Origin: Protula sp. h YS-2021
Taxonomy: Eukaryota > Annelida > Polychaeta > Sabellida > Serpulidae
DNA length: 64,000 nt
Reading direction: 5' to 3'
Assembly: GCA_949752745.1 (NCBI GenBank)
Contig: OX457033.1
Coordinates: 17,027,407-17,091,406 of the forward strand
Both the position numbers and the translations under genes were made by a program. Below the pieces are notes generated by a model. The model ran no database searches. It was not told where the DNA came from and was given only the letters and a program-made list of their open reading frames with translations. Every line of letters starts with the position of its first letter. Positions within the stretch are counted from its first letter, which is position 1. Of the stretch, positions 26,395 to 52,200 are shown piece by piece.

Positions 26395-27349
26395 AAGCCA
26401 TGACAAGAACATCGCATATGATTGGCTGCAAGCAAACAGATAAACCAATTGCTATGATACTGTAATACTTTTCAGTCATCACGAGAACATTGATATTGTG
26501 GGAAGAACAGTCACACACAACAGACACCGTAACAGCTTATACACGACGACTGTCAAAATTCTCAAGTTTTTGTCCATTACGCAGGAAGTATAACGTACAA
26601 AGTATAACAATACATAATAATACACACTTACAGTGAGGTATCGCTCTCACAACATAATTCTATAAAAACAGTTAAGAATCAACAGTCAAACATGTGTTTA
26701 ATACTTCATTTTGATATCACATTTGCCCTATTTTGCTATGTAACTAATATAAACCAACGCTAATGTTTGGTATCCTGGATTTCCCTAAAATGATCCCTGA
26801 ACTACATGTGCTTGAAATTCCATTTATAAAAATGTCAAGGACGATTCTTGTAAAATAACACAGCCTTGTTACAGTCAGAGAGTTAGGCCGCGACTACTTG
26901 CTGAACATGAAACCCACATACATGTGGCGCGGAATAAAAACATTACAGATACAGAGTCTGAAAAAATCTATAGCTACAGCGTAAAAAAAAAACATTTTTG
27001 TGGTGTCTGGTGTAACACAAGACTTCTGTCCTTCAGACTGAATATAGATGGCCTCAGTAGGAAGGCCTCACAGTCCCAGCAGATGGATGTCCTTGACCTC
27101 CCTGACGTAGACCTGGAATTAACTGTTCTCCTCTGGCCTCTTGCCGAAAACAGCCGACCCATGAGCGTTTGGGGGGAGGTGGGGGCGGAGAGAGGGGGGG
27201 AGGGGTAGGCTGGAGGGAGGAGGTGAGGTTGGGATTGACATTCTTGCTGATCAGCCGCCCTATTGGCATGGTACGGTTTGCAGTGGGAGGGGGGGGGGGG
27301 GGGGGGCTTGAGGGGAGGGGTTGAAACTGTTATTGACATTCTTTCAATG
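26395..27349. other. 3' flank of the AKNA-like gene
   Basis: Probably 3' UTR or intergenic. A minus-strand ATTAAA lies at 26697-26702. The G-rich tracts at 27170-27310 resemble the spacers between the duplicated terminal-exon copies, and a GGGATTGACATTCTTG piece near 27229 may be the oldest copy. Confidence 0.35.
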
Positions 27350-27671
27350 CGCAAACAGGAAGAAAACTTCCTTGATAGGAGGGATTGATCTCTTCATTGA
27401 CCTTTAGACGGAAAGCTGTGGGTGAGGGGGTTCCGGGGTGGAGGGGGGAGGGGGAGAGGTTATATTCACATCCCTCTATGTGCAAACAGGAAGCAGCCTT
27501 CCTTCATCGAACGATTGATTTCGCTCACCTTTAGCGGGGGGGGGGGGGGGGGCTCAGCATGGGTGGGTGTGGGGGGGGGGCGGAGAGGTTGGATTCACAT
27601 TGGTGTAGCGCGCAAACAGGAAGCAGCCTTCCTTCATGGAACGATTGATTTTGCTCACCTTTGGCGGGGGG
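27350..27671 (-). repeat. Three tandem copies of the AKNA-like terminal-exon 3' end
   Basis: The block CGCAAACAGGAAG...ACGATTGAT, whose minus-strand reading encodes the NRSIKEG-FLFAH end of the protein, recurs at 27350, 27481 and 27611 besides the genuine one at 27731 (spacings 131, 130 and 120 bp). Poly-G tracts lie between copies. The copy at 27611 would read INRSMKEGCFLFAR. Confidence 0.85.
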
Positions 27672-27724
27672 GGGGGGACCTCAGCATGGGTGGCTGTGTG
27701 GGGGGAGGTTGGATTCACATCGGT

Positions 27725-27877
27725 CTAGTGCGCAAACAGGAAGGAGCCCTCCTTGATGGAACGATTGATCTCGTCGTTGAGCGAGTCCCGCATACGGCTC
27801 GACATCATCTTCAGTCTGTTCGCTGTTTTCAAAGCTTGCTCCAGAGACCTCCCTTCTGGCCTTCCACGGCCTTCGTC
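27725..27877 (-). CDS. AKNA: AKNA-like terminal exon 23
   Basis: Acceptor ATGTTGCAG|GACGAA, phase 0, 153 nt to TAG at 27725-27727. Encodes an RGRP core (DEGRGRPEGRS), then a helix SLEQALKTANRLKMMSSRM and the end SIKEGSFLFAH. Human AKNA ends in a comparable helix and GSCLF. Confidence 0.9.
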   Translation of the reverse strand, partial: DEGRGRPEGRSLEQALKTANRLKMMSSRMRDSLNDEINRSIKEGSFLFAH

Positions 27878-30800
27878 CTGCAACATCAAAAATAAACAGA
27901 ATAAATAAATAAATAATAAATAAATAAATAAAATAAAAATAATTATTATTGTTATTATTATTATTTTTACATTTTTGTATTTTATTTTATTTATTTTTTA
28001 CTTATTTTATTTTATTTTTTTTTTTAGATAAACGTTCGTTATTTTTCCGTATGTTCCGGGAATATTTATTAGGCTGGCTGAAACATTAAGCTGCCTTTTT
28101 ATGGTTAATAAAGAAATCGATAAAATGTAGTTTGAATCTAATGTGGCAAGGGTGTCTCACTGATAACTAAAGACAATTTTAAAACTAAACTAATTTAAAA
28201 TTTCTGCGGCCTCATTTCTTAGTATTACTTTGGATTTTAAAATCTAACGTTATGACAAAAAACTACAAGCTCATGGTACAGCTGTGCTATGCTACTATTT
28301 TAACAGGAATGTTTTAATAACAGAAGCATCCATGACAACTGTTGTCTTCGTTGCCTTGGTTACGCCACCCCCCCTTAACTCTCCACCCCCACCCACTCCA
28401 AACACCAGCCCCTTCTGTTTCCGCTATTCATACTACATTGACACTTCCATTAACACCATTTCAAGAAGGATGCTTAACACCTTCAGGGTTCATAGTCGAT
28501 TTTCAAAATCAAATTCCATGATTTTTCCATGATTTTTCCCGGATCTCAAATTTTTTTCCATGTATTGTTTTGGTGAGGTTTTCACGGATATATATATATA
28601 AAAATGAACGAAAAAACAGTTTCAACCCATTTTTTATTCTGTAAAATACAAAATGGTAACAGAACTACAACTAAATTGACAAATTTCGACATTTTCATAC
28701 CCATCACACATAAAGCACCCTTCCCAGAGCTATATGAGGCTCAACGAGTCAAGATGTGCTTTTGGTTTGACACTCCCCCCCCCCACCCATTTGCAAACAA
28801 TTTTCTCACCGGATTTGCAGCGTTCTCAAAAATGACAGTTTTCTTGGAAATTGAAAAATAATTACCCATTTTCGTTTTCGTTGATTTTTCCATGATTTTT
28901 GGCCTTTTTTTTTTAAATTTCACGATTTTTCCATGATTTTTCCAGGTATTGAAAAAATTCCAGGTTTTCCAGGTGGCCTATGAACCCTGACCTTCTCCTA
29001 ATCGATGACTGACAGATATAATACAAAGCTGTGCAACTGTTAATACTTCCTACCTCGGTACCGTCATCTAAGACATATGTTTTAACTCTCGAGGATTTCC
29101 GATAAACACGGGCCTCCGCTTCGGATGCCGACTCTCCGCCATACTCGCGCACATAATACCGAACCTTAAACATGACAAAGGCACTGGGAATTGTTAAGGC
29201 CACTCACAGTGACAGAAACGAAGCAGGATTATTACTTTTACAGTTACTTGTAAAATATATTATTTGAAACCAGCTAGAAGAAACTAAAATATTGATATGA
29301 GAACAGCTATATTTTGGCTGTTTAGTCATGAAATAATTAACTGCACATATGGCTAACTATCAACTACCATTATCTTATCACGTGACTAGGGCGGGGTTTT
29401 CCTGTTATGACGTCATTACAGATATACACTAAACATCAATCAGTGAAGTATGCTACTTTTCTCTCGTTCACAGCCGCTGTTAATACATTGTTAGCAAGCA
29501 GAACATGGAAATAAACAAGATGTATACTATTACAATGAACTATCCGGAAGTGTGTTTTTGAGCTTAGAAAAGATTTTCTTTTATCAAATGGTAAGTTTCT
29601 AAGTTTTTCTTAAGACCTACAACATGATGTTTATGATTACCTTTGGGGGTTTTTGTGTTTGAGAAGCTGCTATTATCTTAACCGGAACCAACCCAGCACT
29701 GTAAATAAAACATACAAGTTAATTATTTACACTGCATATTTTGGCATTTATTTACTACCTTTATGAATATGCTGTCGCGCATTCAATTTACAGTTGATTT
29801 ACACAATTACCATTTGGTTTTATTGCACCATGCCTTCTTGGAAATTGTTTAAAACCAGCATCACGCATTAACACTGAACTTGTTCGATCTTTTATTTTTC
29901 TTCTTTTTTTATGATTTTACGCAAAACTGGTTGCAATGGGAACTTTTGAGGTTTTCCGTCGCCGTGAGACAACACAGAACTTACGAAGGTGCGTTGCTCT
30001 GTTGCGACTGTGCAGCGGCGACCCCTTGCGGCAGGAAATGGTACTCCCCGTGCGAATGCTGACTTACTCCCCCGCACAGTGGACAATCCGTTGTCTGGTT
30101 CACCTGGTAACTGCCGCCAGTCTGGTAACCATTGGTCAAGCTACCACCATTCTGATATCCACTCGTAGCTCCTGAGGGTTGTAGCAAATGCATAGGAATG
30201 GCGCCATTTTGATTTTGTTGTGCGGCGTAAGTACCCGGATGAGTAGCGTTGCTGCCATACATGCTACCGTCCTGGCCTGGAACATACGCGCTGCTTTGTG
30301 GGACGGCACTCTGTGTCATCCCCGCGGTAACGCCAAGCTGCGGCGCATTTACACTTTGAATACCAGCCTGTGGGGTTACGCCTAGTTGGGGATTTGGAAC
30401 AGCTGGCTGGGCCCCATAATATGGATTCTGAGGTTGTGTATAAGGTTGAAGGTAAGGCACTGGCTGAGTTGATTGAACCGGTTGGCGGGGCCTAATTGGG
30501 GACATATGCCTACGCGGGGCGCGAATCGGTGAAGGAACGCGTCTGCTTGGAGATCCTCGGCGTGGAATGAAGTGTCGTCGCATTTCCGATATTCGCTCGG
30601 GAGATCTCGGTGGTGACTCGGGATCGGAGTAATAAGCCTTCCGCTCGCGACTTCGTCCTCTACTCTGACTTCTGTTCCGCCCAATCCGGTCATAGTCGAA
30701 CGTGCTACCGTCGTCTCTGGAACGACCGCCGTACCGGTCCCCACTTCCGTAACGGTCCCCGCTTCCGTACCGCTCCCCACTTCCATAGCGATCCCGAATT

Positions 30801-33800
30801 CCACGCCGGTCTCCGCTCCGGTAGCGGTGTCCGCTTTCATACCGGTCGCCGGTTCCATACCGGTCCCCGCTACCATACCGCTTCCCATCCGCATCACCAT
30901 AGCGCCTGGTGTACCGTGCCCTATTCCCTGAGTCATGTTCTTGGTCGCTCTCGTAAAAGTCACCGCCTCTCTCGTATTCACGACTCGGGGTCCCGTTCCG
31001 GTACCGCTCTCGCGATCCGGATCTATGCGGTCTCCTTTCCCTGCCGTCTGCTGAATTCGATCTATATCTACTATATTTTAGATCATATCCATCTCTGTCC
31101 GGATAACTGTCATAATCCAAGTCATTTTCCGGATACTCATCAAAGACGTCATATCCGGCGGCGTAAGGATCCTCATAGCCGTTGTAGTGGGCGGGGTAAG
31201 GATAAGCGGCAGGCTGATTGGCATAGATAGGCATTTGCGCTTGAGTGACAGCTTGATTTGCATACGCTGCTGCCACCGGTGGCTGACTGGCGGCATAGGT
31301 GGACGGCATCTGCGCCTGAATGACAGGTTGATTTGCATACGTAGGCGGTACTTGTGCATGACTGACAGCCTGCTGTGCATACGCATTTGTAGCTTGCGGT
31401 GGCTGATTGAGCGGCAGGGGCGGGACTACTTGTGAGGAAGGCGGGCCCTGCGTATTTTGAGAGAACTGCTGTGAATATGCAGCGCCAGTTTCACTGGTTT
31501 GTTGAGGGCAGCGACCAGGATTTAGTTGTTGTTTTAAACGTTCCACTTCGTCAGTCAGCGACCGTAGCTTATCACTGAAACATAAAAAAAAACAAATATT
31601 TTTTAAAAGTTAACAACTACAAGTAAATATACTTTTTGGAGAAACATTCTACGTAACAGCAATTATTCTGAAGACAGCAGATTCGAATGGTTTGAATGCT
31701 CGCGGAGGCCTGAAGAGCACCCATACCAAAAATTAAATCGGGTTCGCTTGAATTTATTCTAACCTGCAGCAACTGCAGTACAAATTTATAAACTATTGTC
31801 TCCAGAAAAGAAAATACCTCCTGGGACTCGTTTTATCTTCACTGTAATCATCTGACGCGGAATGCACTTGTGGCCTCCCTCGTGACCTCGAACGTGACCT
31901 CGAGCCTTGCCTTAACCTTGAACTTTGGCGTCTACTACCAGAAATGGGCTCGCGTTCGCGACCGTTACCTGCATCACCTGCACATAAATAACACCTTTAT
32001 ATTTCTCTTTTTTTTTTAAATTTCTTTCTTTATTTCCTCCCAACAATCTTATAAGGTATTTCTCCGTGCTAATGAAACTTAACAAGAACTTAAAAGTGTT
32101 CATTTCTTTCGACACCGCGATAGCAGAGACAGTACCACCCCCTACCCCCCCTCCCCCCCCCCCCCCACATACAACCATTTTACGAGACAAACCTGCCAGT
32201 CTATCCAGACTGCCCCTCGGCTCATCATCAGCCTGCTTCTCGCGACTCCCCGAGCGCCGCCGACCGTTGTAAATCACGCTGTCTGCCGAACCCCAGCTGG
32301 AAGCACTGTCCGACAGCTCATCCTCTGACCTTGACCTACTTCTTGGACTCGTGTGTGACGCCATAGCAGACGACTTTGCGCCCGGTTTTGGCGGGAGACT
32401 TCTGCAAGTAACAATACATGCACAAGTGGCAATGATCTAAGGCAAGCATGAAGAGAATATATTACTGATCAGCTATGAGCGATACGAAGAAATATTGCCC
32501 TTAAGGCCCAATATCTAAAATAAAAAAAAACATATTCCATGAACTGATACAGAGCCAAGCTCAATGTTATAACTTCTTTCTTTCTGACTGATGACTACAG
32601 AATCTGGCTTAATTCTGTTGTTCCTTCTTTTAACTATTCTGTGGTACTTTCATTGGCGATCTACGCCCCTCATTGGACTGCAACTTTTCATTCCCATTCA
32701 CAACATACAAACACTACCTTGTGCCGCTTCCGCCCACCCCCACGCCGGACGCTGTGGAGGAGCCTCTCTGACCGCCCCGGGGACCAGTCGCTGACGTCAC
32801 GCCATAGCCGCTGCTGTGCCCGGAAGCCGCGGAGTCACGTGCACGGGAACGTGGCCCAGGTCCGGGCCTAGGCAACCTTACAGAAGCGATAATACGATAA
32901 ATTCCCCGTCAGAAATTCCCGCTAACAATCAGACTAGAGTGACAGTAAAATGTACTTTATTCTAAGAAAATTAAGTGAATAGTATTTCTTAGCAAGACCA
33001 AGGCCTACCTGCGCGATGTGGGCTCCCTGTCGTATCGACCGCGTCCTCTGGTCGGCACCGGCGCGTCGCTCTCGCTCTCCGTGCCGTACGCGCCCCTCCT
33101 CGCCGCACTCGCCGCCAGTGCCTCCGACACGGCCGTGCTGTCCGAGTTGAACCGATCGCGGCGCGGGTTGCTGTATCGATCGCCTCTGGGGTTGGAGCTT
33201 TCGGTGGCGCGGGTCGCGCGGGAATGCAGGCCGGCGGGAGGGCGACCTGACGTGCGAGGCCCCCGCTCGGCGGCCGATTCGACGTAGTCACTTTCGTGGT
33301 CTGACGTCACCGCGTCATCCAATGATGCCTGGGAAAATTAAAGATGAGATCAAAAGCAAGAATGCATCACTTGGAAGACACGGCAGAACACAATAACGCA
33401 AGAACAAAGTATCTGCCTAACTGCATTCATGATGTATTAAGTAGATATGTTGCAGGATGCCTGGATCAATGATTGCTTTTTTCAGTAGGGCGCAAACTCG
33501 ACCTCCCCACACCCCCCCCCCCTCCTCCGACTCGCCAGGGAGGTGATATTTCATTTCCAGCTTCTTGCAATGTGGTTTTGCTGATCTGTTCTATCCTACA
33601 TAACACTGACCCTATTGTGTCGGTGTCCGTACAGAGGGCGGCCTCCCCGAGGTTCTCCTTCTTCGGGGTGCGTGAGCTTTTCGGCAGGAAGGAACGATCC
33701 CGCCGCACTGCTGTATCTTCAAAGGAAAAAAAATAAATGCACATATTTCACATAAAATAATTTAAAAATGATTCATAAAACTAGAGTGGCTAGAGCACCC

Positions 33801-36800
33801 CAACAACAGTGGGGTGCTCGAACATGCTAAGCACTGTCATTAACCAGCCTGAAATCGGCATTTCTACTTCTATCCATCCTACTGTCGAACCTTTAGACAT
33901 GATAATATACACTATGATAGGTTATGGCAGAAGATCAAAGTCAATGATATGCTATATATAGAACTTTATACGCCTGCAACTCTATTTAGGGAATCAATTA
34001 AAGGGATCATTTTTTTTTAATTTAAAAAAATTAAATTTATTTGTTCTTATGTACAGGTAACATATTTTAATGGTTTTATAAAAACAATTATATTCAATGT
34101 TCATCCGAGTCATTTTTTTAACAAATTTAAACTCAATCTACGGCTCTAACATGCAAATATAGCAACTAACTGGGGAAACTTGCCCTTTACATGCAAACAA
34201 GCAGAATACGGAGAGAAAACGTACGCTTACAAAATTATTTGACAAAAAAAAAAACATGAAAAAGTTGAAAACTGATAGAGATCTAGAAAATTCTGCCAAT
34301 GAAATGCATCTAAATTCCAACAGGTATTTTTTTTTTCTCAAAACTAAGCGTAATTTGCAGAAAAAAGCGACATGGCACTCTGGCCGAATCTGAAGGTAGA
34401 GTATCTTTTGTTCCCATTGTGAGCTAAGCTTGTGTGAGACAGTCACGTCAAGAAAATGCTAATGTAGAACCATATTTCTATCGTTCCATGCAGGTCGTGC
34501 ATGGAACTCTTTTCTTTGTTTTTGTAGTTTCACAGGAATAAGAATATCACCGAGGCCCTGAGATGACGGGAGAAGATGGTGGGGGGGGGGGCGGGGGGGG
34601 GGGCGGGGGGGGGGGGGTTGCGGAGAGAGGGAGGAGGGTGTGCAATGTTTAAGCGTATCTCCTTTAAGCACAGCTGACAACAGTGCTTTCTGCTCAATGC
34701 GCAACGAAAGCTTGTATCATAATGCAACAAGAGTCACCGAACGCTCGATTAATCGTGCGCACACAAAACGAGGAAACTGCTCCTTATTTACAAGTTCAAG
34801 TACACGGGTTCAAACTGTATACAATTCATATGACATCTTCATGCACAGCCCCTGGTCAGAATCACAGTGGAATCCCCAGAAACAATTGCAAACGTCACAA
34901 AATACGTGTCCAGTCCGTAATTTAAAACTAAATTGTGTGTTGACATTCAGATAGAACGATAAGGTCAGCACATGAGGGATTTTACTGTATCCCGTTGCTC
35001 CTCCCCCTCGCCTCCCTCCCGACCCCCTAACACCCCCCGCCCACTGGCGTGGGCATCTTCGTTTTAATTTTGGCCCTCAGCATGCCTGCACACACAGCCG
35101 GGCACTTACCTCAGCCACGCGAACACTTTAGGTATGCATCGTTTCGGAATGTAACGATTCAAAACGATACCGTTTAACTTCGAGTCAGGAGTTAAGCTTG
35201 TAAAAAAAAAAAAAATAGAGAAATAGGCTTAAATTGGAACACTGAAACAGCCGCCAGCCAGAAGAACCACAGAATCAACCAGAGACAATCTATTGTGGGC
35301 TTTGGAAGGGCAGAGCGACTCTGATGCACAGAAAATAGATCCCTCCCTTCAGATCCAGCAATCCCATCCAGTTTTCATTGAATAAACGTGAAAGCAATTT
35401 AATGTAAATTGAAACGATTTATTCTTGTTATTGGATCTGTACAAAGAGCTGTCATTAACAGAAGCCATAAAACTGATCATAGGATATTAAATCAATTAAT
35501 GTCTTACTCCATTACGGGACTATGTACTTAAGTAAGAAATAATTCACGGCGTTTGGGGTTACTGTCTGTCACCGCATTTCAACCAATCACTACCGCGTAC
35601 GCTGTGAATGATGTTACTCTCTTTCGCCACATTTCAACCAATCAAAACGCTCTATATGAAATGACGTAGAATGCGTTCACTCACTGTTTCTCCAGCCCGG
35701 CAGGCAGCGCCGGTCTCCTATGCTCCGGTGTGCGCTCATACACTTCTTTCATTTTCTAAAAAAAAAAAACAAAAAAAAAAACCTATTTTGAAAACACGGC
35801 TTGCACCACTTCGCGTGCTTCTCTTCTTTCTTTTTCACATATTCACGAAGACAGAGAGACTGTGAAACGCTCAAGTCACATAAAACAGATAATGCGACAG
35901 CCACCGTCAACGTTTGACCGTAAGATACATAGGGGGGAAGAGGGGGGGGGGGGGGGGGGGAGGTAATGTGGGAGTCGAGATGGCGGTCACGCTCGGGGCT
36001 CCTCTCTAAGCCTTTGACGCGCATATACTGGTCCACCAGGTCCGTGTACAGCTTGTGGGAAGAGGGGGGGGGAAGCAGGTGGGCACTTACATCAAGGAGG
36101 GAGTCGAGCTGGCGATCACGCTCGGGGCTCTTCTTCAAGCCTTTCACACGCCTGTACAGGTCCATCAGATCCGTATACACCTTGTGGAGGGGGGAGGGGA
36201 GGGGGGTAGGGGGAGGACGGGGCAAGCAGGGGGTGCACTTACATCGAGGAGGGAGTCGAGTTTGCGGTCACGCTCGGGGCTCTTCTTCAAGCCTTTTACA
36301 CGCCTGTACAGGTCCATCAGGACCGTGTACACCTTGTGGAGGGGGGGGGGGGATGACGGGGAGGGGGGTCACTCACGTCGAGGAGGGAGTCGAGTTGGCG
36401 GTCACGCTCGGGGCTCTTCTTCAAGCCTTTCACACGCCTGTACAGGTCCATCAGATCCGTGTACTCCTTGTGCAGGGCGTGCAGCTTCTGGTCTACGCCC
36501 GCCCCTCCTGAAATAATGGGGTTATACAAGCGCTTAACGACACGTTTCTACATCCAAACTACTTCCGTCCCCCACCCACCCCATCCACAAAGTAAAAAAG
36601 GAAAAAAAAAACACTGCATATATTACAGTCTGGATAATCATAATAACGTCATTCTGGACATTAACTGCAGTTTTTGGCGCCTGTTTTCCCCGTGGCGTGC
36701 CAAAAAAACGACATTGGCTACCATGCAAGTTGTCAAGCAGCCAGTAAATCCGCCAATGTCATTGGATGAATCGATTAGTTGCTAGAAACGCCCAGAAATA

Positions 36801-38440
36801 GTGACCTCATGCTGCCGGAAATCACTTTCCATCCATGTAGCTATGGTGCAATACGATTTAAAATTTCAAACAATATACCGACAAGGCTGCCTAGGCTTGG
36901 CGGCCTGTCCGCGCTGACGTCATCGGCCGAAGCACTGGGCTTCATTCGCGTGGCGGCATCCGTACTGATGCTGTGGTCGGCCTTCACCGGCCCTGTTTTC
37001 CCAGAAAACGGCTTCCTGTGATCAGAGCACAAATTTTACAACTATACCTTCTTTATTTTGTCATATTTCAAAATAGGCAATAAAGTATAACATATAATAA
37101 TTTATAATATATATATGTTACAGGCAAACTGTCAAATCAGGCAGATTATAATCTGCCTGAAAATTTCAGGCAGATTGTAAAATTCCTGGTTCGACCAGGC
37201 ACATTGTAATCTGCCTAAAATTTTTAGGCAGATTGTAATCTGCCTGATTTTGGAGCCTGATCCATCGTTTGTAATCATGATCCATCCCATTCATAACCGG
37301 CTGTTTCATGCGATTTGGTTGTTACCTATTTAAATATGTGATCGTAAGAATAAAAGGCAATTGATGTGATCAATTGCAATTATATAGAGCAAAACATTCG
37401 GTTATGATCATGCATAACACTGGATTTTTAGTATCTACTCACGCGTTTTATGGGATTTGGTTGTCATTTATTCTGATATCTGATCGTAGGGATAAAAAGC
37501 GATTGATGTGTCTAATTGCAATTAAAAACACGTGAGTGGTCGGTTTGCTCGTTCGTTTCATGTGATTTGTTTACCACTTGCTTTCTTTTATGCCTTGAGT
37601 TATTACACCTGCATAATGCTATTGATATGTTTTAATGCAATTCTAATTACAATGTCTTGATTAATTTAATGCGCGACTTTTTTGCTGATTGCTTTGTTTT
37701 ATGTCTTGATTGAGCACATTTTTACAATAGCATTGATGTGATTGAATGCAATTGGAAATTGCAATTTCTTGATAAAAAAATGCAATGATATAAATCTCAA
37801 TCCAGCCCCCCCCCCCCCCCCCTACACCTATATAATGTATTATATTTTGAGATCAACATGCCAGTGTAGCTTCCTAATTCTTACTCCTCCGGTATTTGAT
37901 GGGGTTTTTGTGCACAGTATAAATAGGGCGTGAAAAATTGATACCTGATAAATATATTTACAGTGTTACATAGTTATTTTTTAGCTAGTACAATAAATAA
38001 AAAAATATTTGCGTTTAATTGCAATCTCAAAAACCCCATAGATCGATACAATTGCATTTAAATACATTGCTGCAGCTGTGATGAAGACATGCGATAAAAG
38101 TAACAATAGAAAATGCACGGCAATCAAATCGCATGAAACGCGCGAGCGGACCCATTGTTCACGCCCACTGAATTGCAGTTGACCATATCAATCGCCTTTT
38201 ATTCCTAAGATCACATATTTGAATAGACAACAACCAAATCGCATGGGGGATCATGATTACAAACGTTCCTTTCATTTCAGGCAAATTGTCAAATTTTCAG
38301 GCTCTAAAATCAGGCAGATTACAATCTGCCTAAAAATTTTAGGCAGATTACAATGTGCCTGGTTGAACCAGGAATTTTACAATCTGCCTGATATTTTCAG
38401 GCAGATTATAATCTGCCTGATTTGACAGTTTGCCTGTAAC

Positions 38441-38526
<86 letters not shown>

Positions 38527-40207
38527 AGATAGATAGAGATAGATAGATAGACTACCAATAGTTCGAATGTCAGTTAAATCAATAATGCTTTATTTTTCTT
38601 ACTTCAATTTATTCGAAGGTTTAGGACCGATCCGAAGTATTTTTTTTTTCAGGGAGCGAATAAGTTCGTGAGGGTGGCTCCTACTGCATTCCAGATTGTG
38701 TGGAATCGCTCCTGGGGTCGCGGATTTGGCATGGGGCTCTCGAGCAGGCTGTTCGTGAGGCTTTTTGTTTAAGACTTTCCGGCACGCCCCAAGATTTCGG
38801 ACTTGCTTTGGGGCAGTGAGTTGGGGGGGGGGGGGGGTAGGGAGTTGCACTTGGTGGATTTTTGCTTGAGGTTTTTTCTGTGGTGCCCGTGTGAGGGTGG
38901 GGGTAGGGGGTGAGGGGACTGTACCTACAGACTTGTGATTGAGGTTCACACTGTGTGAGGGTGGCAGGGAACCTGACGGTGGGGGTGGGGGTGGGGGGTG
39001 AGGGGGCTGTACCTGGCAGACTTCTGCTTGAGGTTTTCCTGCACACTGTGCTCCAGGTCGTCCAGACGCATGTTGATCTTGTACAGCTCCCCGTCCACTT
39101 CTTTCGTCTCGTCAAACGCTGGCTCGTTCGCGCCTTCTCCAAGCAGTCCTGAAATGTACCCCAAATCACGCCTTTGTGCAGCTATCGCAACAAAACCAAC
39201 TTCAAATCTTGATTTACTAATGCAATTATCGTCACAGATCATTGACATTGCAACCCGTCTTGCCCTGTGAACCTGATTTGTTCCAGAATCGAAAAGCCAG
39301 GAGAGATGGGGGCAAGGGGAGGGGGGGGGGGGAGAGTTGACACGTGACTCACCCTGCCTGCGCCTGTAGTCATACTCCTCCCGGGCATTGCGGTAATCCT
39401 GCGTCAGATTCCCGTAATTATGTTTAATGTTCTCCAGCGCTTTGCTTTGGTCCTCCGGAGGGATGGTGGGGGGGGGGGGGAGGGGGCGGGAGTTGACACG
39501 TGACTCACCCTGCCTGCGCCTGTAGTCATACTCCTCCCGGGCATTGCGGTAATCCTGCGTCAGATTCTCGTAATTATGTTTGATGTTCTCCAGCGCTTTG
39601 CTTTGGTCCTCCAGTGTTAGCTGCTTCTCATCCAGCAGGATTTGAAACGCATTTGTCTGGAAAATAAATAAAATATATAAATGTCACGAAAAAGTTTAAG
39701 AATTTTATTTTGCATTCATGTATTGTCTATACCATCGTTCAATAAAGGCAATACATTGATTTATCAACATCATATCATTTTCTTTGGTTACGATATAACA
39801 CGATTGTAATGACGTATCTAAGAGGCGCACCTGTTCCTCGATGGCTTTGGCCTTGACCAGCAGCGACAATTTGACGCCGTCACCCTGCAGCGACTCCAGG
39901 TCGTCCGTGGACATGGCTGTGTGCACGTCACTCTGCTGGGCAGAGCCTGGCACATGCTCGGGGTAGGCGGCGCCCGAAGTGCCCTGGCCCGCGGGCTGTG
40001 AGGTCTGAGAGTTCTCCGAGTTCACTCCCACGGAACTGGAATGGCTTGATCGGGAAGGAGGTCGCACCCCCGCTGCATCGAGACGCCAAACGTACATCTT
40101 ATTTATTTATTTATTTATTTTTTTTTACAATTCTTGAATTTGTCCGTTATTTAAATGCGGGGAAAATGACATTTTACACATATGCCTAATGTAATAGATC
40201 CTCACCA

Positions 40208-40262
<55 letters not shown>

Positions 40263-43200
40263 GAATCACGTGGATCTGAAGCATTTAAACGAGGACACTG
40301 CCCCGACATCCAAATGTGTGTCTAATTTTAGAATGGCACTTACACTGCTGCAGACTGCCGACGATGGCTTGGTGCGCCATTTGGGTGGGCGTCATCCTGC
40401 CCTGTGTGCCCTGCCCCATGACGCCCAGCGGGAACGTCTTGCCACCCTGGCTGCTGCTGTTCATGCTGCCCGGCACGGCCGTGCCCGGGGGAGCACCCTC
40501 CACGTACAGCTTCACCTGTCACACGTTAACGCATGTGTCAACTCCAACTCCCATCCCACTAAGTTGAATAACTTCACGGCCTAATATACGGACCGGTAAT
40601 CTAGATAACTTATTTTGTAACCTGCACCACTTTTCCAAAAAACCAACGAACCGATTATCGCGAGATTTGTATGTAAGACCGTGAGGCGTAGGTCGTCCAT
40701 GCATCCCCCCCCCTCCCGTGTAAATCCCTCGCCTTACCTTAGCGCCGAGGCGTAGGTCGTCAATGACATTGTCCGCCCCCACACCACACCCCCCGTGTAA
40801 ATCCCTCCTGCCTTATCTTAGCGCCGAGGCGTAGGTCGTCAATGACACCCCCCCCCCCCCCCCGTGTAAATCCCTCCTGTCTTACTTTAGCGCCGAGGCG
40901 TAGGTCGTCTATGACATTCTCTGCCTCCGCGTATTTCTTGAGCAGATTCTGGTACTCCTTCTGCAGCTGGTTGAGCGTCTCCTCATTCTGCTTGCGGCTG
41001 TTCACCTCCTCGATGTAGCGCGTTTTCAGCTCGCGCCGGGACGCGGTCGAGCTCTGGCTCAGGTCCTCCCCGCCGCTCTCCTCTGCCGACGTGCGCAGCT
41101 CCGGACTCGCATCTTTGCCTGCAAACGCTCCCACACTTACACCACAACACCAGCCTGTCTGTTACTCACTAACACATTCTGCAAATGTGATATTTCTCCG
41201 TTCTATTGGTTTTAATCTCTGCGTCTGCCAAGACACACCCCACTTTACGTGGCAGTTAATAGTGACGAAACGCCTGACGAAACACGCAGTTGGGTTCTAA
41301 AAGTCATCACGAAACACTTGGCTAATTCTACAAATTTTTAAGTCTGTTGGACTGAGAGAAGATTGTGTTTACCCGGTGAACGATCGCGATGTGTTCTATT
41401 GGGTGTGTTGGATTTTGGGCGGGGCGAGTGTGACGTCAGACTTGGGACAAGGTCTTGCTCTTCTTCTACGAATTCCGCACGTTTCGGTGACGTCAGTCTC
41501 TTGTGTACTTCGTCATCATCCATGAGAAGCCACTTCGCAGCTCTCCCGAGTTCACTCTCCCCCTACAGAGCGAAGCCAAAGTTAATGCGTCGAATTGCTG
41601 GACACTGCTGCACGAGTGATCAACTTATTTCAATATTTACAAAGTATTTCAAAGATACGCCATAATTCAATAGAATTAAAAGTTTCTTTATCTTGCGCAT
41701 CACATCTTGCCACAACACGTACCGTTCGCATTAAAAAGTTCTACCTACGAGAGAGAGAGACGTTTATTTGTCTCAATGGTTTGATAATGTAAAGCTGACA
41801 CTTCTCATGAGCCCACTTCCTTGAAATAAATGGCGGCACCGCGTACCTGTGACAACTGGTTGCTGATGGCCGTTTCGTTGGTGCGACTAGCATCAGACCT
41901 GGCGCTGGCAAGGGCCTCGCTCACGGGCCGGGGTGACTTGCCATCGCCGTTGCCGCTCGAGGGCGATATTCCCTGGCGGCGCTTCTGTGGGGTCAAGGGC
42001 AAAGCTCTGCGTGGACCCCTGCTACTTCCGGGTGCTGGACCTGGAATACCTGAAACCATCAACATGATCCTGTAGAAACATTCTTTTAATTCACCTGGTT
42101 TTCTTTCAATTTATAATTCATTGCCCCAACCATCTGTATAACCATTTTTCCCGCGCACGACTGCTGAGCGAGCGACTTTTAGACACCACATTTCATATTC
42201 TATCATCTGTAAACGTGTATCTTAACATACGGATGGCGTTTCGCTTTCAGACATAACGACTTGGATGGACTAGATTGTGTCAATGCGCCACCTATGGACT
42301 GATTGTATCAATGCGCCACCTGATTACCTGTCTGACTGGGTCCCAGGGGCTTGCGATCGGGACTCCCGGGCCGGCTACCCGCGCCTCGGCTGGACGGCCT
42401 ACTTCCGGGACCGCGGCTGGCCGAGCGGCTGGTCGGCCTGCTGCCCGTGCCGCGACTTCCGGGCCGTGACCTTGACGGTGACCCGGATCGAAGTATCGGT
42501 ATTCGGCTACGACTCGGCGTCTCTGAACGCGGTGCTGAGAGTTCTGCAAGAGTGCAAGAAACATTTCACTAGACACTGCCGCGTGTACTTCTGTACACAG
42601 CCTGAAAGGGCACGTCATTACATTAATTTAGTGATGTCTGCATGGCCAATCATGTCACATCTCAGCAGTCACGTGTACATAACGTGTCACTGTCTCGCCC
42701 TAATCACCAACAGTAAACCATGCAAACCATTTTTATTACCCTTTTACAAATTAATTCGTAGATATTCACTACAGAATGAGGAAACTGCCTGACGGGCAAG
42801 ACAAAGGAGGTTAGCGAGAACATAATGCCAGTATAAAATAATTCACTTCACTGTCAAAGAAAACAGACAAAACTATACTTGTCAAAAAAATGACCAAACT
42901 GCACCTTTTCATAGATGTAAATCACTTTGCAAAAACTTAATAAAAAAAGCAGTATCGTCTCTGTAAGAAGACGCTTTTTTCAAACAATCACTTGAAAATA
43001 AAATACAAATTCACTGTGGAACACGGTAAGACTGTTAATTACTACCTCTCGAAAACTATGAATTACTACCTACTTTCCAGTTAATATACCAGTTATTCTA
43101 AACCAATTATTCTTCTGACCAAAAAAAAAAAAAAAAAAATTCTACCGAATTCGTATTCATGAGATGCCACAACAGAGAAGGAAATAACTGAATTAAAACA

Positions 43201-46200
43201 ACTAAAGAATTGCATTGGTCATAAGTGAAATAACCGACCCCATGCTGGGAAGAAATGGCACAATAGTTCACAAACCTCCCATGCAAAAAGTCATACAGAT
43301 ATGCTTTAGATCATTCCACAGCTTTTCACGCTTCCTGACACGCAAACCGAGTTCAATAACTAAAAGGAAATTAAATCAGTATATGATATTCATAAACAAA
43401 ATGACAGGAGCATGCTACACCAGGCTACACCAGTTCATCGAACAAGTGACAGTGCAGAGCTTTGCGATACGTTGGATTAACTGAAATCCGAGATAAGCGG
43501 GCCCAACAGTGTTAATTCTTCCCTGTATTTGGTCTCGAAAGTTCTCCACTAAACACCTAAAAATGACACCCGAGCCCCCCAACAGGTCTTAAGAAAAATC
43601 TAAGTAAGTCACACGTGACACCTAGATAAACGAAGAATGTTAATTTAAATAAATAAACCAACAAAAATCCATTTCATACAATAAGACTTTCAATTTCAAG
43701 CAAAACCAAAAAACAAAAGGACACACTATTAGTTGCACGCATTACGTCACTTATGACGTGTCACGCCAGAGAAGCGGCGTCACTGTTTACCGTCATGACG
43801 AGGGTGGTGTTGCAGCGACACTAGGTTCTCGTCAGAATAGTTGTACTCGGAGTACAGAGCAGTCACGTCAAAACTGCGCTCAAAGGGCAACGAGTCCCCG
43901 AACGACTGAACTGTATCTAAAACCACACAGCACTGCTTTTTGCATCTGCCCTGCGAAAACCTACACACCTCTGAACTATTGGGTACTAGAGGTGTGTTCC
44001 GGGGCAATTAGTGTTGGGCCGGATAGTGTCGGGTCACGGAACACATCCCTATGAGTACTACCACAAAACAGTACACACACTTTCCTCATATTTTCATATT
44101 TAAATAGATGGTTACTCTAAAGATTTTTTAAGTATAAAGTATTGCTCAGATCTGTAGCAAAGATTTTGTTGTTTTTGCTTTAACTGAGGACAATGACAAG
44201 AGTATAGGTAGATTAGCGGAAAATACGACCTCGAGCTGGACGCATCCGGACAATACATGGCAGCAGGATCAACACGGAGCGATCCAGATCTACACGGAAT
44301 GAGTGTCACGCTTCCCTCCCCCCCCCCCCCCCCTCCCTTATCCTACCGCCTCCGCCTATCGGTTCACCTCGCACACATTGCTGCGTACCTGCAAGGGTGG
44401 GCAGAGCACCGGGCTGGTCTGGTTCCCCCTCCCGCGGCTCGGAGTTGTCTCCAGCCACGTGCGGTTCCAGCATGATCTCATCGACGGAGCCGGAGATCAT
44501 GCTGATGGAGTCCTGCTGGTGGCGTGTATACCTGTCAATCAAAATCACCCATCAAACACCCCCTAAAGCCCAAATCTCAGCGATGCTTTTTTCATAACTG
44601 AATCAAGACATTATATAATATGCAGCTCTACTTGTCTTAAAAGCAGTGTACGCTAAAATTATATCAAAACAAATAGCAATAGAATGAGTCTTGCCGGGCA
44701 AGCTATCACGGGTCCACTAGATAAGTACCACAATGTCTCACCCATTTTGTTCCGTGTCGTACACGCGTGGCGACCTGGGCGACGCCGCGGACCTCTTACT
44801 CTGCTCGCTGGCAGCAGGTCCTGGGTCACGTGACGGAAGCCCCTGGTCACGTGAGCGGCGCATGCGCTGATCGTTCTCCGAGTGATACGCAATCTCATCG
44901 TCATTGGCTGCATCGTCTTCCTCAGTCTCTTTCAAACCTACAACATGGTACGGGTTAGAATTTTTTTAGCCCCGGGATCAATATATTTACCGTCAGAGCA
45001 ACAGAGTAAATTCTCATCTTTTACGGAAAAATACAGGTAGATCTTTGGTCCAAATGAGCTGTTTCTAACCGATTCTTGTCGCTGCTAATCAATACATCCA
45101 TAAATGTTCTTTCCACTATATATCATTCTTAGGGAAGACATATTCATTACCGTTAATTGGTTTCTTATTTTATGGTTAAGTAAACATCGTACAATAACAC
45201 TGTCACAAGTAATGGCGGTAAAGCCTATAGGAAACCTGCCTGAGTGAACTAGATATCGACCGCCACAAACGCATGACAAAACGAAGGAGACGTGACATGT
45301 TAAAAACAATACCTTTTAAATAAGCACCGATCAGATCCAGCTGGTTATCCGCAGCTTCGCTTTCGCTCACGTTATGTTCAATCGCCGCCTCCAGTTGTTC
45401 GAATTCCGCCAATGACTGGCGGTTATTTGAGAACTCTTCTTGCGTGAAAATGCTATCCCCAACGATAGGCGGCCGCTTCCCATCGCTGTCACTTTCTTGG
45501 TCTGAAGAGCCCAGTCTTTTTTTAGTTCTCCTTGGAATATTTCGCGCAACACGAGGCAGTATGTTCGGATCTTGAAATCGCGCGAAATCGGCATTTGCTT
45601 GAAAGTTGTCGTAATTTTCCTCAATATCGCTCACTTCCTCTCCTTCGCTGCTATGCTCTGATTGGTCCAAGTTATCGTCAGCCATGACAGCTTGCGCAAT
45701 CTCCTCCGCTGTCTGCACGTATGGCTGTCGCTCTTCCCGAACTTGATCTTCATCTTCGAACTTATGACCTTGACCCAGGTCATGAAAGACATCGGCGTAA
45801 TTGGAAGACTGTACGTATTTGTCAAAGTCAACACTTTTCTCGTCGCTATGTCCACGGCTACCGGACCTCGCTTTTGTGTTTGATTGGTCGCTAAATAAAT
45901 AGCTCTCATCGTTCAGCTCAGGAAATTCCAAAGCCTGGTCACTGTCGTAGGAATGATGCTCAAAAGAGATGTTTTCCTGAAAGCAAATGAAAGTACTGAA
46001 AATGGAAGTACGACCAAATTTCGGTATACACTACACAGTACAACACTTTTTAAAAGAAATTTATATACCTCCTTTATCTTTTTTTTACTCTAGAAAAATG
46101 TGAAGATGAAGGTTACCCACCTGTTGTGACTCGGAATGTTCCAGCTCGCTGATGTGATACGAAGTGGTACTCTTGCTGTCAATCTGCGAACCAGTTTCCT

Positions 46201-49200
46201 TCGCCGGAGTGCCACTCTTTTCCCGCCCTGGCGTAGGGATATATCCCTGCGGTCCGTAATCCTCCTCGGAGCCGTACTCGGAGCGGAACTGGTTGAGGGT
46301 GGCGCTGGAGGATTTGCCGGTGCCCGGGCCAATGCCGGAATCCGTGTGGAAGGTGCGCAGGCTGTAGTGCGATAGCTGGTCTGCAGGCTCGTCTCGCCAT
46401 ATACCCTCCTCGTCCACAAGGATACCTATACAGCACACCCACACCAAAAGAAGGTTAAAAGCGATCCGTCGTCGCTATGTCTAGCCGTCTCTGACATATC
46501 ATTCATACGTTTTTAAGCGAATAAAAACATTTTAATCAATCGTTGGTATGTTGATGTGTTTAAGTGAAAGTGTCATACATTCACCGAACAAACAAAAAAT
46601 CACCAAACGACCTCAGACATGAAATTTATTCGTCCTTGAACGACCCAAAAGGGAAAAGAACGACTAAATTACTTTAAACAAGACATTAAATTCACATGAA
46701 TTTAATCTCAATTTCCTGCCCATAAATTCATTTTGCACGAACTTGACGCTAAAATTGCAAGATAAATTTGATACAACAATTATAAAGAGATGAACCAAAT
46801 TATCTTATTCATATTCTGGTGATTCTATATGTGAAAAATCTATGTAAGCAATATTTCATTCGGGAAATCAAACGTTTTTTGTTCCGTAAAATGTTGTTCT
46901 GTTTTGAATAAAATTTCCTGTTTCTTATAGCTTCATGAGGTTGTTCCTTTCAGTTTGCAACATTCCATGAATTGTGATCAAGATGCACTTCAAAACGTTT
47001 CTTTGTGATTTTGCAGGCTATGAAGGAGTACCATGAAAACTCCCACAGCATTCATTTCAACCGAAACCACACACACATCTCTCTTTTCTGTGGCATTTTC
47101 CTTCTAACAAAAATTGCCAATCGAATTTGAAATTGGTATAACCCGAACGCACCAGAATATCGTGTATACTTATAATCAAAATCCCAGCAAACAGACAATG
47201 TCATGCTCCTGTTAAAAACGACAGCTCTTTGTTGAGATCTAAAAGGTGTACGAGTTTCGCAGTAATCCCATGATGTTAAGGTTTCCTCCCCTAACTTCCA
47301 CGTCACATCCCGAAACATGACCTCTGGGACAGGATATAGGATGAAATTGATTTCCTGGAACAGCTGAGATTTAAGACGAAAGCTCCAATCCAACGAGAAC
47401 AACGTGATATCTGTAAGCTCAAGTCATTCCTGTGACTCACATAACGTACAAAAAAATCCTGTAATTTTGCACTTGTTGCTTAACAGCATTACAAGCAGGT
47501 CTGAATTTTCATATCTCAGTTACATACAGTACATTTTATACGATTTTAGCCAGACCATTTCCACACAACGCCCATTCTTCGGTACTAAACAACGAAGTAA
47601 GCGGGGGCCGTATTCACATCGCGTCGTTCACCCCAAAGTCTACATTTACCACTTTATATAACCATAGAAGAATTAAGTTTGCACTGTTTTATCACTGTGA
47701 CTACGCCCGGTCACGTGAGCTGTCGCGACGGGAACGTAATCCCGCCCCCTCCCCCCAACAAAACACTAAACCATCAGCCAGATCGTCTTCTTTTCACTCT
47801 GGAATTGCTTTCTTTTCACCCACTTCATGTGGTTGAGACAGAGCACCCTGAGCATGATTACATGCTCTATCGGCGCATTCAGCCTCACAGCACCACGCCA
47901 GCCGGCCAACACAGGAACTTAGCCCATAAAGGACTCGGTGCATTTGGCACCTTTGGCTTGTAGATATCTATATTTCCATGGCATTTGTGCAGAGTTTAAC
48001 ACATTCACTTTTCGAGTTGTAGGCCTAAATGCGGATACGCCGCTGGTTCGCCGTTACGTCACTCTGACGTCGGCAATGTAACTTATACTAGGAGAGAACT
48101 TAAAAAGAGCAACATATGGTGATCCAGCCTAATCACGTCACCGACACAACGCAAAACTGTTTAAACACATTGCAGCATTTTAATGTGCACTGGAAATAAA
48201 TATCATTCACACAAACACAATTGCAAATTGGTCTCATTTTATACAGACCCAGCAATGCATTATGTTTGTTGTCGGCGCTGTGACGCGTGCCTATTTCCTC
48301 CAATGTGAACTTGTTGAGAATCGGAAACTCACTCACGCTAGTTTCTATCTAAGCTTCCTTCGGGATTTTGCACAACTTTTCACCATTTGCAATATCCGTT
48401 CACGAGGTGGGGGAGGGGGGGGGGGGGGTGAAGGGTAATAAAAGAAACATAACTGACTGGTACAAACACTAAATTTTCCGGATTAGTGAAGTCGAGATAT
48501 CTGATACGGAAGGCAGGCTTACTTATCAAGGAATCCAGCCGAGTGAGGCGCTTCTGTAGCTTATCCAGCGCTTGCTGTGCTTGTGTTTTATCCATGACGT
48601 CACGAGGCTGATCCGCTCAGATGGCGTGCGATTTATACGCTTGAAGCATGTGCCGAATGGTGGTGTCATTCACTCACACATGCATGCTGAACACGGTCCT
48701 GTATTCGCAAACGGCGAGCACGACACAGTAACACATGCTCACATCGCCCATAAAAGCGTGGCATATCCACGTATCACCTGGCTTGTTTGAAGTCATGACG
48801 GGTACCGCGCGAGTCAATTTAGTCCATGAACATCACGCGCATGTCAATTATGATAAACGGTCTATTGCTATATTTGTATATCGCTACAACATCACTTTCT
48901 ATCACCTTAACGAGGCAAATGACTGGCAGGCCCGCTGCAGTAATCCAGTCCCATCTTCCGAGGAACAGACATTTCAAAAGGTTAAAGCCATGTTTTGTTC
49001 GAAATTAAAATAATTCTAGCGAAAGTCACTGCCCTCAAACTTTCACAGAAGGCCTGCTGATGTGTTTGATCCTAAGAGATATACATATATATATTGTGTT
49101 CCAGCTCCGGTCCGTGGATTACAACAGGCTTTGTTCTTTCCCAACAAAAACGATGCCATCCAAAAACGATGAGTCTATTTACTCAGGCCTGTTGTCACCT

Positions 49201-52200
49201 CAAGGTGTAACACACTAAGCATATATAAAACTATTAACTGATTATTGACTGTCCACGCGAGCATTTTGTACCACGTCACCCGTGTACACATCCATTTAAT
49301 CTATGATCTCCTATTTTTTTTATAACACAGGTATTGAACCTAAGACAAGGCTTGGCGTTATTGATTCGCTTCCGACGCTGCATTTTTGTAAACAAGCACA
49401 GAATCCGCCGATATTAACCGTTTATGCTGCTAAAAAAATACAACAAAGCATTCAAGGATGACACGATAAGGACTTCTTACAGCGCTACGAAAAAACTAGA
49501 CTAGACCACTTGCTAGGGATTTGGCGACATCCTATTTAGAAGAATGATTGAATACGTAAGCTTTCAGCAGTGGCTTAGCCGCCCAACGCGACTTCGCAAA
49601 TCTCGTGTTGTTTATCTATGGAAAGTATTGCAATGAGACGCTCCAGAGGTAGGAGTTATTTGGTTTGGGTGTGCTTCACGGGGGAGCGAGGGAGGAGTCG
49701 GGATGCTTCTGAAGGAGAAGCCTGTCAATCATCAATTAGATATGCCTGACTGTATCCAGCAGAATGGTGCCGTGGTATTTGTTCCCTACTTCACACATTG
49801 CTTGCGTTTGCTCACGGAAATTCTTAACTACATATCCATGGAAATTCTTGGCTGCATATCCATGGAAATTCTTGGCTGCATATCCATAGAAATTCTTTGC
49901 TACACATCGATGGAAATTCCTGAAGCATTACGTCATGTCCACACGACAACAGTCAGCTACCCACAACCAGTCCAGTACTGATCACGCATGACGCGATAAC
50001 CACATGCGGACAGTCGCGTTACAATATCCTTATCACTTTCCACACGCCGAGAAACAACTTCAACGAATCTTTCAGAAAAAACTTTTCTCAGCTCAACCCA
50101 AAACAGTGCATGATTTTTATTAATATCCAAACAATATTGAACCTATTTTATACTGCAGCCAGTATTGTATTCCCAATTTGACTGACTTGTGATTTTTTTA
50201 CACTTCAAATCTTCATTGATCCTTTTGTTAGGATCCTTTCTAATCTGCACTGGAATCCTGATCAACTGAAGGATTGTCTCATATCTCCGGGCCAGATCAA
50301 GTCCCCACATAATTCCCGCCCACTGGTCCCCTCAAACATATACAATGAAAACTGCGTAACTTTTCAACAAATCTCCCAATTAACTTCAATTCTGAAGTTA
50401 CAAAGCGTCGTTATTTTCTGCTTAGTTGTGTGATAAAAACACAGTGTGATTAATTACAAAAATCCGTCAAGACATAGCAGTGGCAGATTGTCCCTGCCCG
50501 ACAGTCCGAGAAACACGACGTTACGTCACATCCGCCGGAAACGGCACAGCCGCAAGATACTGGTATCACAACCAACTAGAGAATACTTTCTTCGTTATTA
50601 ACAAAGAAACTCACTTAAATATTAAACAGGGCCATGGAACCGTTTGCCCGGCCCGCGGTCCAGAGTTACGGGTACTGGTCATGTTTACAACCCTGCGTCG
50701 TGTGTCATCGAGCCTTTTCATGTCCTGTCGAGCCTACTTACAATCAATGAGATCGGTAAACCATTATCTAAGTGAATCTCATTTGTTCACACACACAAAC
50801 CACACGCCCCTGATCCCATGTATATAAAGCACCTAACAAAACACAGAAAATGACAATCCGGATTTTCTATTAAAAAAATCAATGTATGATATAGAGAGCC
50901 ATAAAGCTATTGCACCAGTGGCTGGATATACGAGGCTATTATTATGGGTGTATTTTTGGCGGACTTTTCGGGGTTTTTTTCACGCATAAGCTCTGTTCGC
51001 TCGAATTAACGAAGTCCTTGCGGGTTTGTGAGAATGTGCCTTTTTAAAGAATCCGACCTAAAAAATAACAACTTGCACAAACTTTTTTGATAACAAGTGG
51101 TTCTTTTAACAACCGAAATGAAAAGGGTCAAGGCAGAGGCGCGCGGGCTGATTGGAAAAGCTCGCGAGCACGTGATCTCGAACTGGCGCCAACTACTGGC
51201 AGTGTCTGCTCGTGTTGAGCTGAGTAACTAAGAGACTAGGAGAGATCGTGGGTAAGTCCTCACGAATGATGGACTGACTAACTGATATACGGGTGAACTC
51301 GGGAAGTTGATTGAATTCACTTGTTGCAGAGGCATTGGAGCTCAACAAAATTGGGATGTACATCAGAAAACCATCACCCCAAGTTTAGGGTGTAAATGAT
51401 ATGTTCCGACAGCGCCTACAATGAGGTGTGACTCAAACGGTTCAGTACGAGCGGTGCTAACCCTGCGTGACGTAGGTCACTCATTTCAGTACGAACTGTG
51501 TTCACCCTGAGAGACCTAGATCATTCGGTTCATCGTGGTCTGTGCTTACCCTGCGTGACGTGGGTCTTTCGGTCCATTACGATCTGTGCTTACCCTGCGT
51601 GACGTAAGTCATTGGGTTCATTGCGATTTGTGCTTACCCTGTGTGATGTAAGTCATTCGGTTCATTGCGATTTGTGCTTACCCTGCGTAACGTAAGTCAT
51701 TCGGTTCATTACGATTTACGGTTACCCTGCGTGACGTAAGTCATTCGGTTCATTACGATTTACGCTTACCCTGCGTGACGTGGATCATCTTGTTCAGCTT
51801 ATCCAACCGCTGCTGAAGGTCGTCAAATTTCACAGTGAAGTCAAACTTGGCTTTTGGCATTTGGGTCGATGGGAAGCGAGATCGCTTTGCCCGACCGTAG
51901 TTTGCATTTCTGTACATTTTTATTTCTTATCCTTCCTTTTCTCTCTAATTTAATCTTTGTGCTGCATATAATTACTTAGAAATTTGTGTCAAGACCCTTT
52001 TCTAACTGAGGGTTTTGTTTGTGTTCCTTGATGATTATCAATTATTTCAGTATCATTTTTAAGGTACTAACTTTCCGTGCAAGTCGAAACAGTTTTCACG
52101 TGCAGTGTTTACATATTCCATGTGCAATGTGCGGACATAACCGGCTGCCCCTATACCGAACAATACTGAACGATTGATCCATAATTATGTTCTCATATTC

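Follow-up and report, generated by a model that had tools for sequence, protein, structure and literature searches.

The 64,000-nucleotide stretch of contig OX457033.1 analysed here (positions 17,027,407 to 17,091,406; 'the window') carries on its minus strand an AKNA-like gene in which the 3′ ends of several exons are repeated in tandem just downstream, in most cases together with the splice donor and the beginning of the intron. This raises the question of whether the splice donors of one gene attract duplication, as a first-pass annotation of the sequence had proposed, or whether the gene displays a process at work throughout the genome. Arrays of this kind are already known, under the name of 'mirages', from lancelet genes. 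The evidence presented below indicates that mirage-type junction repeats have probably formed genome-wide, often with a C or G tract in the unit, and that most of them are probably neutral for splicing.

A model of the AKNA-like gene (27725-51917, minus strand), built on open reading frames, splice signals and phase, has 24 coding exons and encodes 1979 residues when exon 17 is omitted. Exon 24 of this model is exon 23 of the first-pass annotation. The least secure parts of the model are exon 17, whose junctions do not agree in phase, and two splice sites, the exon 2 acceptor and the exon 15 donor. At each of the 24 exons, the end and the start were separately aligned (locally) with the adjoining flank, and the score compared with those of 100 shuffles of that flank. 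By this exon-edge test local copies follow six of the 24 exon 3′ ends, namely those of exons 1b, 10, 13, 14, 16 and 24 (five splice donors and one coding end with its stop codon), with scores of 43-222 against shuffle maxima of 21-27. The same test found copies ahead of none of the 24 exon starts, in agreement with the earlier observation that the acceptor sides of this gene show no equivalent.

The six arrays, all on the minus strand, differ in their construction. The exon 1b array (51438-51781) consists of ∼7.8 copies of a 44-bp unit (Tandem Repeats Finder score 408; exon-edge score 43 versus a shuffle maximum of 27), in which 12 bp of exon end are followed by the donor and the start of the intron, with no C or G run. 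At exon 10 (40700-40918; 71 versus 22) the 69-79 bp unit comprises exon end, donor and a G tract and is present in three copies plus a short partial fourth; copy 2 lacks the GT donor. The exon 13 array (39316-39612; 222 versus 22) has two copies of a 156-bp unit of exon end, donor and C tract, with two differences in 102 coding bases. Three decayed copies of the exon 14 end, with its donor and C-rich intron start, lie at a spacing of 75-88 bp (38816-39040; 46 versus 21). The exon 16 array (35928-36476; 171 versus 24) contains four copies of 129-152 bp, each with up to 90 coding bases and a C tract; the frame is open in all four, and the donor is present in all except copy 4. Finally, four copies spaced 120-131 bp apart follow the last exon (27332-27773; 84 versus 25), the unit comprising the last part of the coding region, stop codon included, and a C tract. 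In the arrays of exons 10, 13, 16 and 24 the junction between copies falls at the C/G tract.

Repeat finding and the sequence itself thus agree that the arrays are real and that their unit sizes are those first described. Because unit sizes and divergence differ, and because the exon 13 sequence has a single matching place in the 863-Mb genome, the arrays are best regarded as separate events at several exon ends, as had been claimed. The single match also rules out a dispersed repeat as the source of the unit, for exon 13. A 29-bp piece beside exon 7, formerly counted with the set, does not belong to it: the 28-bp pair in intron 7 (42265-42321, minus strand) is intronic and does not derive from an exon.

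In order to place the gene in its genomic context, the assembly of the window's own genome (863 Mb, 218 contigs) was sampled at landmarks picked regardless of repeats. Conserved motor-protein exons served this purpose (87 myosin, 108 dynein and 139 kinesin matches), and the exons examined were 66 of the 87 myosin and 30 of the 108 dynein matches, the kinesin matches being left out. A first look at 60 of the 87 myosin exons showed copies downstream of five and upstream of eight. Alignments were read for 11 of those 13 (C5:14441902 and the weak C7:51201225 are not among them) and for C5:77491883, which lies below threshold. By eye, four cases are donor-side (C8:27973392, with a 128-bp unit containing a C tract, C11:5624666, C7:51199461 and C5:77491883), one is a whole-exon copy (C5:14441568, with its partner at C5:14441902) and five are acceptor-side (C7:67415485, C11:5629398, C3:13027601, C11:5627288 and C5:77494938). 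C3:13020104 and C5:14443727 were set aside as not junction-related or chance. Similar copies thus occur at both exon edges elsewhere in the genome.

The AKNA-like gene is, moreover, ordinary for a gene region in its overall density of tandem arrays, with 4.49 per 10 kb as compared with 3.96 in 190 kb around the myosin and dynein genes, and arrays cover 8.0% of it versus 11.6% of the sample.

The pattern in the AKNA-like gene also recurs as sequence motif. A genome-wide search looked for CAG|GTAAGT with a C10 or G10 tract 3-33 nt beyond it. The C10 pattern gave 17 forward and 36 reverse matches, compared with 13 and 2 for the pattern read backwards, and the G10 pattern gave 20 and 46, compared with 17 and 4; these counts are weak statistically, since reverse matches were tallied per run position, some sites lie in dispersed repeats, the control sites are unlisted, which prevents their being thinned, and the backward motif occurs at its own frequency. 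By our own count the distinct sites number 33 (C) and 30 (G). G-tract sites occur in close groups, for example C6:41201665 with 41201791, and C8:875055, 875136 and 875455. Three loci chosen by the C10 pattern, which therefore demonstrate the existence of such arrays and not their frequency, are long arrays: L059 (∼6.7 copies of an 89-bp unit), L060 (∼8 copies of 121 bp) and L061 (∼20 units of roughly 60 bp each). In each, the unit runs from a tail with CAG at its end through GTAAGT, or a variant of this hexamer, into a C-rich tract, the tails being putatively exonic by the motif alone. Similar sequences that start with CAGGTAAGTGT and end in a C tract were also seen at five distant places (C4:47442808, C4:54821524, C5:21679586, C9:38757340 and C3:49894480); this is perhaps a dispersed element with a donor-like motif, and perhaps of relevance to the origin of introns.

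Long C and G tracts are a second feature of the exon ends. Taking a run as a C or G homopolymer of at least 8, exons 2, 6, 10, 13, 16, 17, 20 and 24 of the AKNA-like gene have one within 100 nt past their end, and no run lies within 150 nt before any of the 24 exon starts. Among 95 of the 96 sampled exons (C5:14441902 was omitted as a copy), runs lie within 150 nt after 12 exon ends and before two exon starts (P = 0.01), and run density, 0.45 per kb overall, reaches 2.5 per kb over the 25 nt immediately past an exon end. With the AKNA introns pooled in, the figures are 19/118 on the donor side and 2/115 on the acceptor side (P = 0.0001). Part of this contrast may be a scarcity of runs near acceptors, since pyrimidine tracts and branch points would leave them little space.

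The link between C/G tracts and the arrays, suggested previously, holds as an association. Duplicated ends make up 5/9 of those with a run and 1/15 of those without one in the AKNA-like gene, exon 14 being scored as run-bearing on a C6 tract; the corresponding figures in the sample, where six of the 95 ends are duplicated by eye, are 3/12 (C8:27973392, C5:14441568 and C1:75916383) and 3/83 (C11:5624666, C7:51199461 and C5:77491883), and those of the pool are 8/21 and 4/98. Four AKNA exons have a run and no duplication, namely exon 2 (C14, 48415-48428, 94 nt past the exon), exon 6 (G16, 44318-44333, 55 nt), the uncertain exon 17 (G11, 33512-33522, 88 nt) and exon 20 (G14, 32153-32166, 26 nt), all on the minus strand. 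This suggests that the run precedes the duplication.

Taken together, these data are most readily explained if copying slips in DNA, by template switching or slippage, duplicate short segments in tandem (44-156 bp in the present arrays) across many genes, so that an exon edge would come to lie within the unit by happenstance. Many donor-side units include a long C/G tract a few tens of bases past the donor, and such a tract could stall the polymerase, which would then reattach upstream, within the exon. The array would subsequently grow or shrink through unequal exchange. Since the exon remains complete in the first copy, together with its original donor, the extra copies would be removed with the intron and be free to drift; indeed, the gene model stays open when the first donor of every array is used. 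A few copies stay open and may serve as extra exons. Stalling as the cause and neutrality for splicing are the parts of this scheme that we infer.

Several observations weigh against it. A strict test, in which the predicted boundary had to lie within the copied stretch, was applied with all 96 exons kept, one donor and four acceptors being impossible to place. It counted 4/95 donors (the whole-exon copy included) and 2/92 acceptors, none of the cases falling among the 30 dynein exons, and at control points 250 bp inside the introns it counted 4/93 and 5/92. In these small numbers junctions are not duplicated more than introns, nor donors clearly more than acceptors, so that the mechanism may be indifferent to exons. 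In addition, exon 1b and three sample cases are duplicated without a run of at least 8, and, because runs sit inside many of the units, their association with duplication does not independently establish a cause. The window flanks have about one array per 10 kb; run density is 9.0 per 10 kb in the AKNA-like gene as against 4.5 in the sample; and duplicated exon ends number 6/24 in the gene versus 5/95 in the sample (the four strict cases and C1:75916383; P = 0.009), in a gene preselected as striking. The gene may therefore have something of its own. Finally, the differences in some of the ghost copies downstream of the first are mostly silent, which is unexpected under plain drift.

This last point bears directly on an alternative that we consider unlikely, namely that the ghost copies function as exons, either alternative or repeated, in which the C tract of one unit would act as the pyrimidine tract of the next copy, and in-frame copies would add or swap a segment. 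Exon 16 is the best candidate: each copy offers 30 codons in phase 0 with the frame open in all four, and a C-rich tract ending in CACAAG precedes each ghost. The ratio of silent to replacing differences is 5:1 between copies 1 and 3 and 6:2 between copies 2 and 3, an excess that centres on copy 3; the other pairs give 3:3 (1-2), 5:8 (1-4), 4:9 (2-4) and 7:7 (3-4). These and the following counts are small numbers uncorrected for transitions or choice of pair, and comparisons that involve copy 1 are biased because copy 1 is coding. Since copies 2 and 3 are both ghosts, copy 3 may be in use, or it may be a recent coding allele shifted to the ghost position by unequal exchange, which could likewise account for a silent excess. 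The last exon gives 5:2 (copies 1-3) and 2:4 (1-2), exon 10 gives three silent and one replacing (1-3), exon 13 one of each, and exon 14 one silent and three replacing (1-2), so several pairs have no silent excess. Moreover, the gaps between exon 16 copies would be 39-62 nt (unit length less 90), which is short for introns, the acceptors would be AAG rather than CAG, the second copy of exon 10 lacks a GT donor, the exon 14 copies are decayed and the last-exon copies lie beyond the stop. The genome does contain one duplicate which, judged from its substitutions, is plainly used: the myosin pair at ∼C5:14441628 and 14441908 differs by 29.5 silent and 3.5 replacing changes (86% of silent and 3% of replacing sites), with a C13 run and AAG ahead of copy 2.

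A related and bolder proposal, likewise doubtful, would make C/G homopolymers after donors a genome-wide engine, which would trigger duplication of exon tail and donor and leave the tract as a ready-made pyrimidine tract for the copy. Splice-ready copies would result, and some of them (exon 16, the myosin pair) could have come under coding constraint.

The view of the first-pass annotation was that a repair of breaks specific to donors duplicates exon 3′ ends and that the AKNA-like gene is a hot spot. Within the gene the donor-side preference looks real and is moderate to strong. When 14 local arrays of our own choosing were placed at random in the gene, a mean of 2.7 exon ends were hit and at least six in 2.8% of trials; no acceptor was hit in 4.6%, and a difference between ends and starts of at least six, as in the observed 6:0, arose in 0.2%. 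The excess of duplicated ends over the sample and the donor-side position of the C/G runs point the same way. The random-placement figures flatter the gene, however, because it was selected for its striking look, and the copies at five myosin acceptors and the equal counts at intron control points make donor-specific repair quite improbable. Donor bias also fails as an undescribed phenomenon, given the copies on both sides of exons elsewhere in this genome and the published repeats at both boundaries in lancelets. The freedom of a neighbouring receptor gene from such arrays had been cited too; it has ∼3 introns, too few to tell much, and no C/G run of at least 8. R-loops favour G-rich RNA, and the strand of the runs lends no support to an R-loop version of the idea: within 150 nt after exon ends the sense strand carries 10 runs of C against 3 of G for the sampled exons, and 5 of C against 4 of G for the AKNA-like gene.

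False copies from assembly or polishing errors at homopolymers are scarcely credible: C/G homopolymers are difficult to sequence, and the copies of exon 13 and of C8:27973392 are nearly identical, but other copies carry many substitutions and like arrays stand at unrelated loci.

Protein searches, which scored the 8000 candidates with most words in common, listed five AKNA homologues (one nemertean, three molluscan and one from a turtle) at ∼29-36% identity, and no AKNA protein above ∼36% over the core was among the matches listed. The turtle homologue carries Pfam PF12443; Pfam scans of the window's proteins gave no match above the curated cut-off, and Rfam and tRNA scans gave no matches. A possible alternative first exon, 1a (MDEFDVDEKGIYREK; ∼53796-53880, minus strand), resembles the start of the molluscan homologues and is followed by a C12 run at 53660-53671; it was left out of the exon statistics. 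The large exon 22 also contains in-frame repeats, at 30729-30887 and 31230-31369, with a unit of 18 bp in one case and a 75-bp pair in the other; these stand apart from the junction arrays. Two related palindromic stretches in intron 14 (37135-37249 and 38308-38422, ∼1.1 kb apart) look like miniature inverted-repeat elements.

Elsewhere in the window, the receptor-like gene (6854-11110, minus strand) encodes a long serine-rich tail; the pieces scanned gave no Pfam match, and no homologue was among the matches listed. A 114-bp satellite of ∼45 copies occupies 18565-23756, followed by 339-bp and 145-bp arrays to 26258, and GC skew is −0.26 to −0.36 across 18-24 kb; the satellite had no match in a phage collection. 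In the wider assembly, the mitochondrial contig C218 (L052) carries a divergent COX1 of 605 codons (translation table 5), unusually extended at both its N and C termini, and tandem repeats of some 400-450 bp lie after it. Long stretches of C11 (7.27 Mb) that include a myosin gene match C74 at 99.3-99.8% identity, and from this C74 is likely to be an alternative haplotype of that region.

How do these arrays compare with known systems? In the parts of the published accounts available to us, lancelet globin genes are described with tandem repeats across exon-intron boundaries, at both boundaries and in units of 150-160 bp, the name 'mirages' follows the work on Adh3, and a model of intron gain is offered (PMC3087553); like repeats are reported for PGBD5, with troponin C cited (PMC3902484). 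The likeness is close: in the lancelet genes (Adh3, globin, PGBD5 and others) the unit spans the exon-intron boundary and the copies have diverged, as here, and the 10-160 bp recorded there as unit sizes embraces the 44-156 bp found here (PMC3087553, PMC3902484). Lancelet mirages lie at both boundaries; here they lie at donors and a coding end in the AKNA-like gene and at acceptors of myosin exons (2/92 by the strict test). Undisturbed splicing is stated in those accounts for the lancelet repeats; in the AKNA-like gene it may hold, the gene model being open. Tandem duplication of AGGT segments, reviewed as a route to introns (PMC3443670), likewise yields new candidate splice sites from a duplicated splice-site motif. 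As far as that review is available, it differs in that an exonic segment is duplicated and a new intron forms, whereas the present arrays repeat a junction that already existed, and what they display is duplication alone. Tandemly duplicated, mutually exclusive exons are matched by the one myosin pair; the AKNA copies, in contrast, are partial and have neither exon start nor acceptor.

The hosts of mirages in the accessible text of these sources are cephalochordates. Three features speak against Branchiostoma as the present host: no close AKNA relative was among the annotated proteins listed by the searches of 8000 candidates, the genome of 863 Mb is larger than those of lancelets (about 0.5 Gb), and the COX1 is divergent and terminally extended as compared with that of lancelets. 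If the host is not a lancelet, mirages would exist beyond lancelets and, judging from absence, would be no lancelet peculiarity, and this genome, in which arrays that carry donors reach ∼20 units, would be well suited to following how new exons and introns begin. No paper joining C/G tracts to junction repeats was found in the literature searched, most subscription journals being outside its scope, and the parts of the lancelet accounts available do not mention such tracts. The long C/G tract that many of the units carry here thus sets these arrays apart from the mirages as so far described, and its position after the donor makes it a concrete, countable feature.

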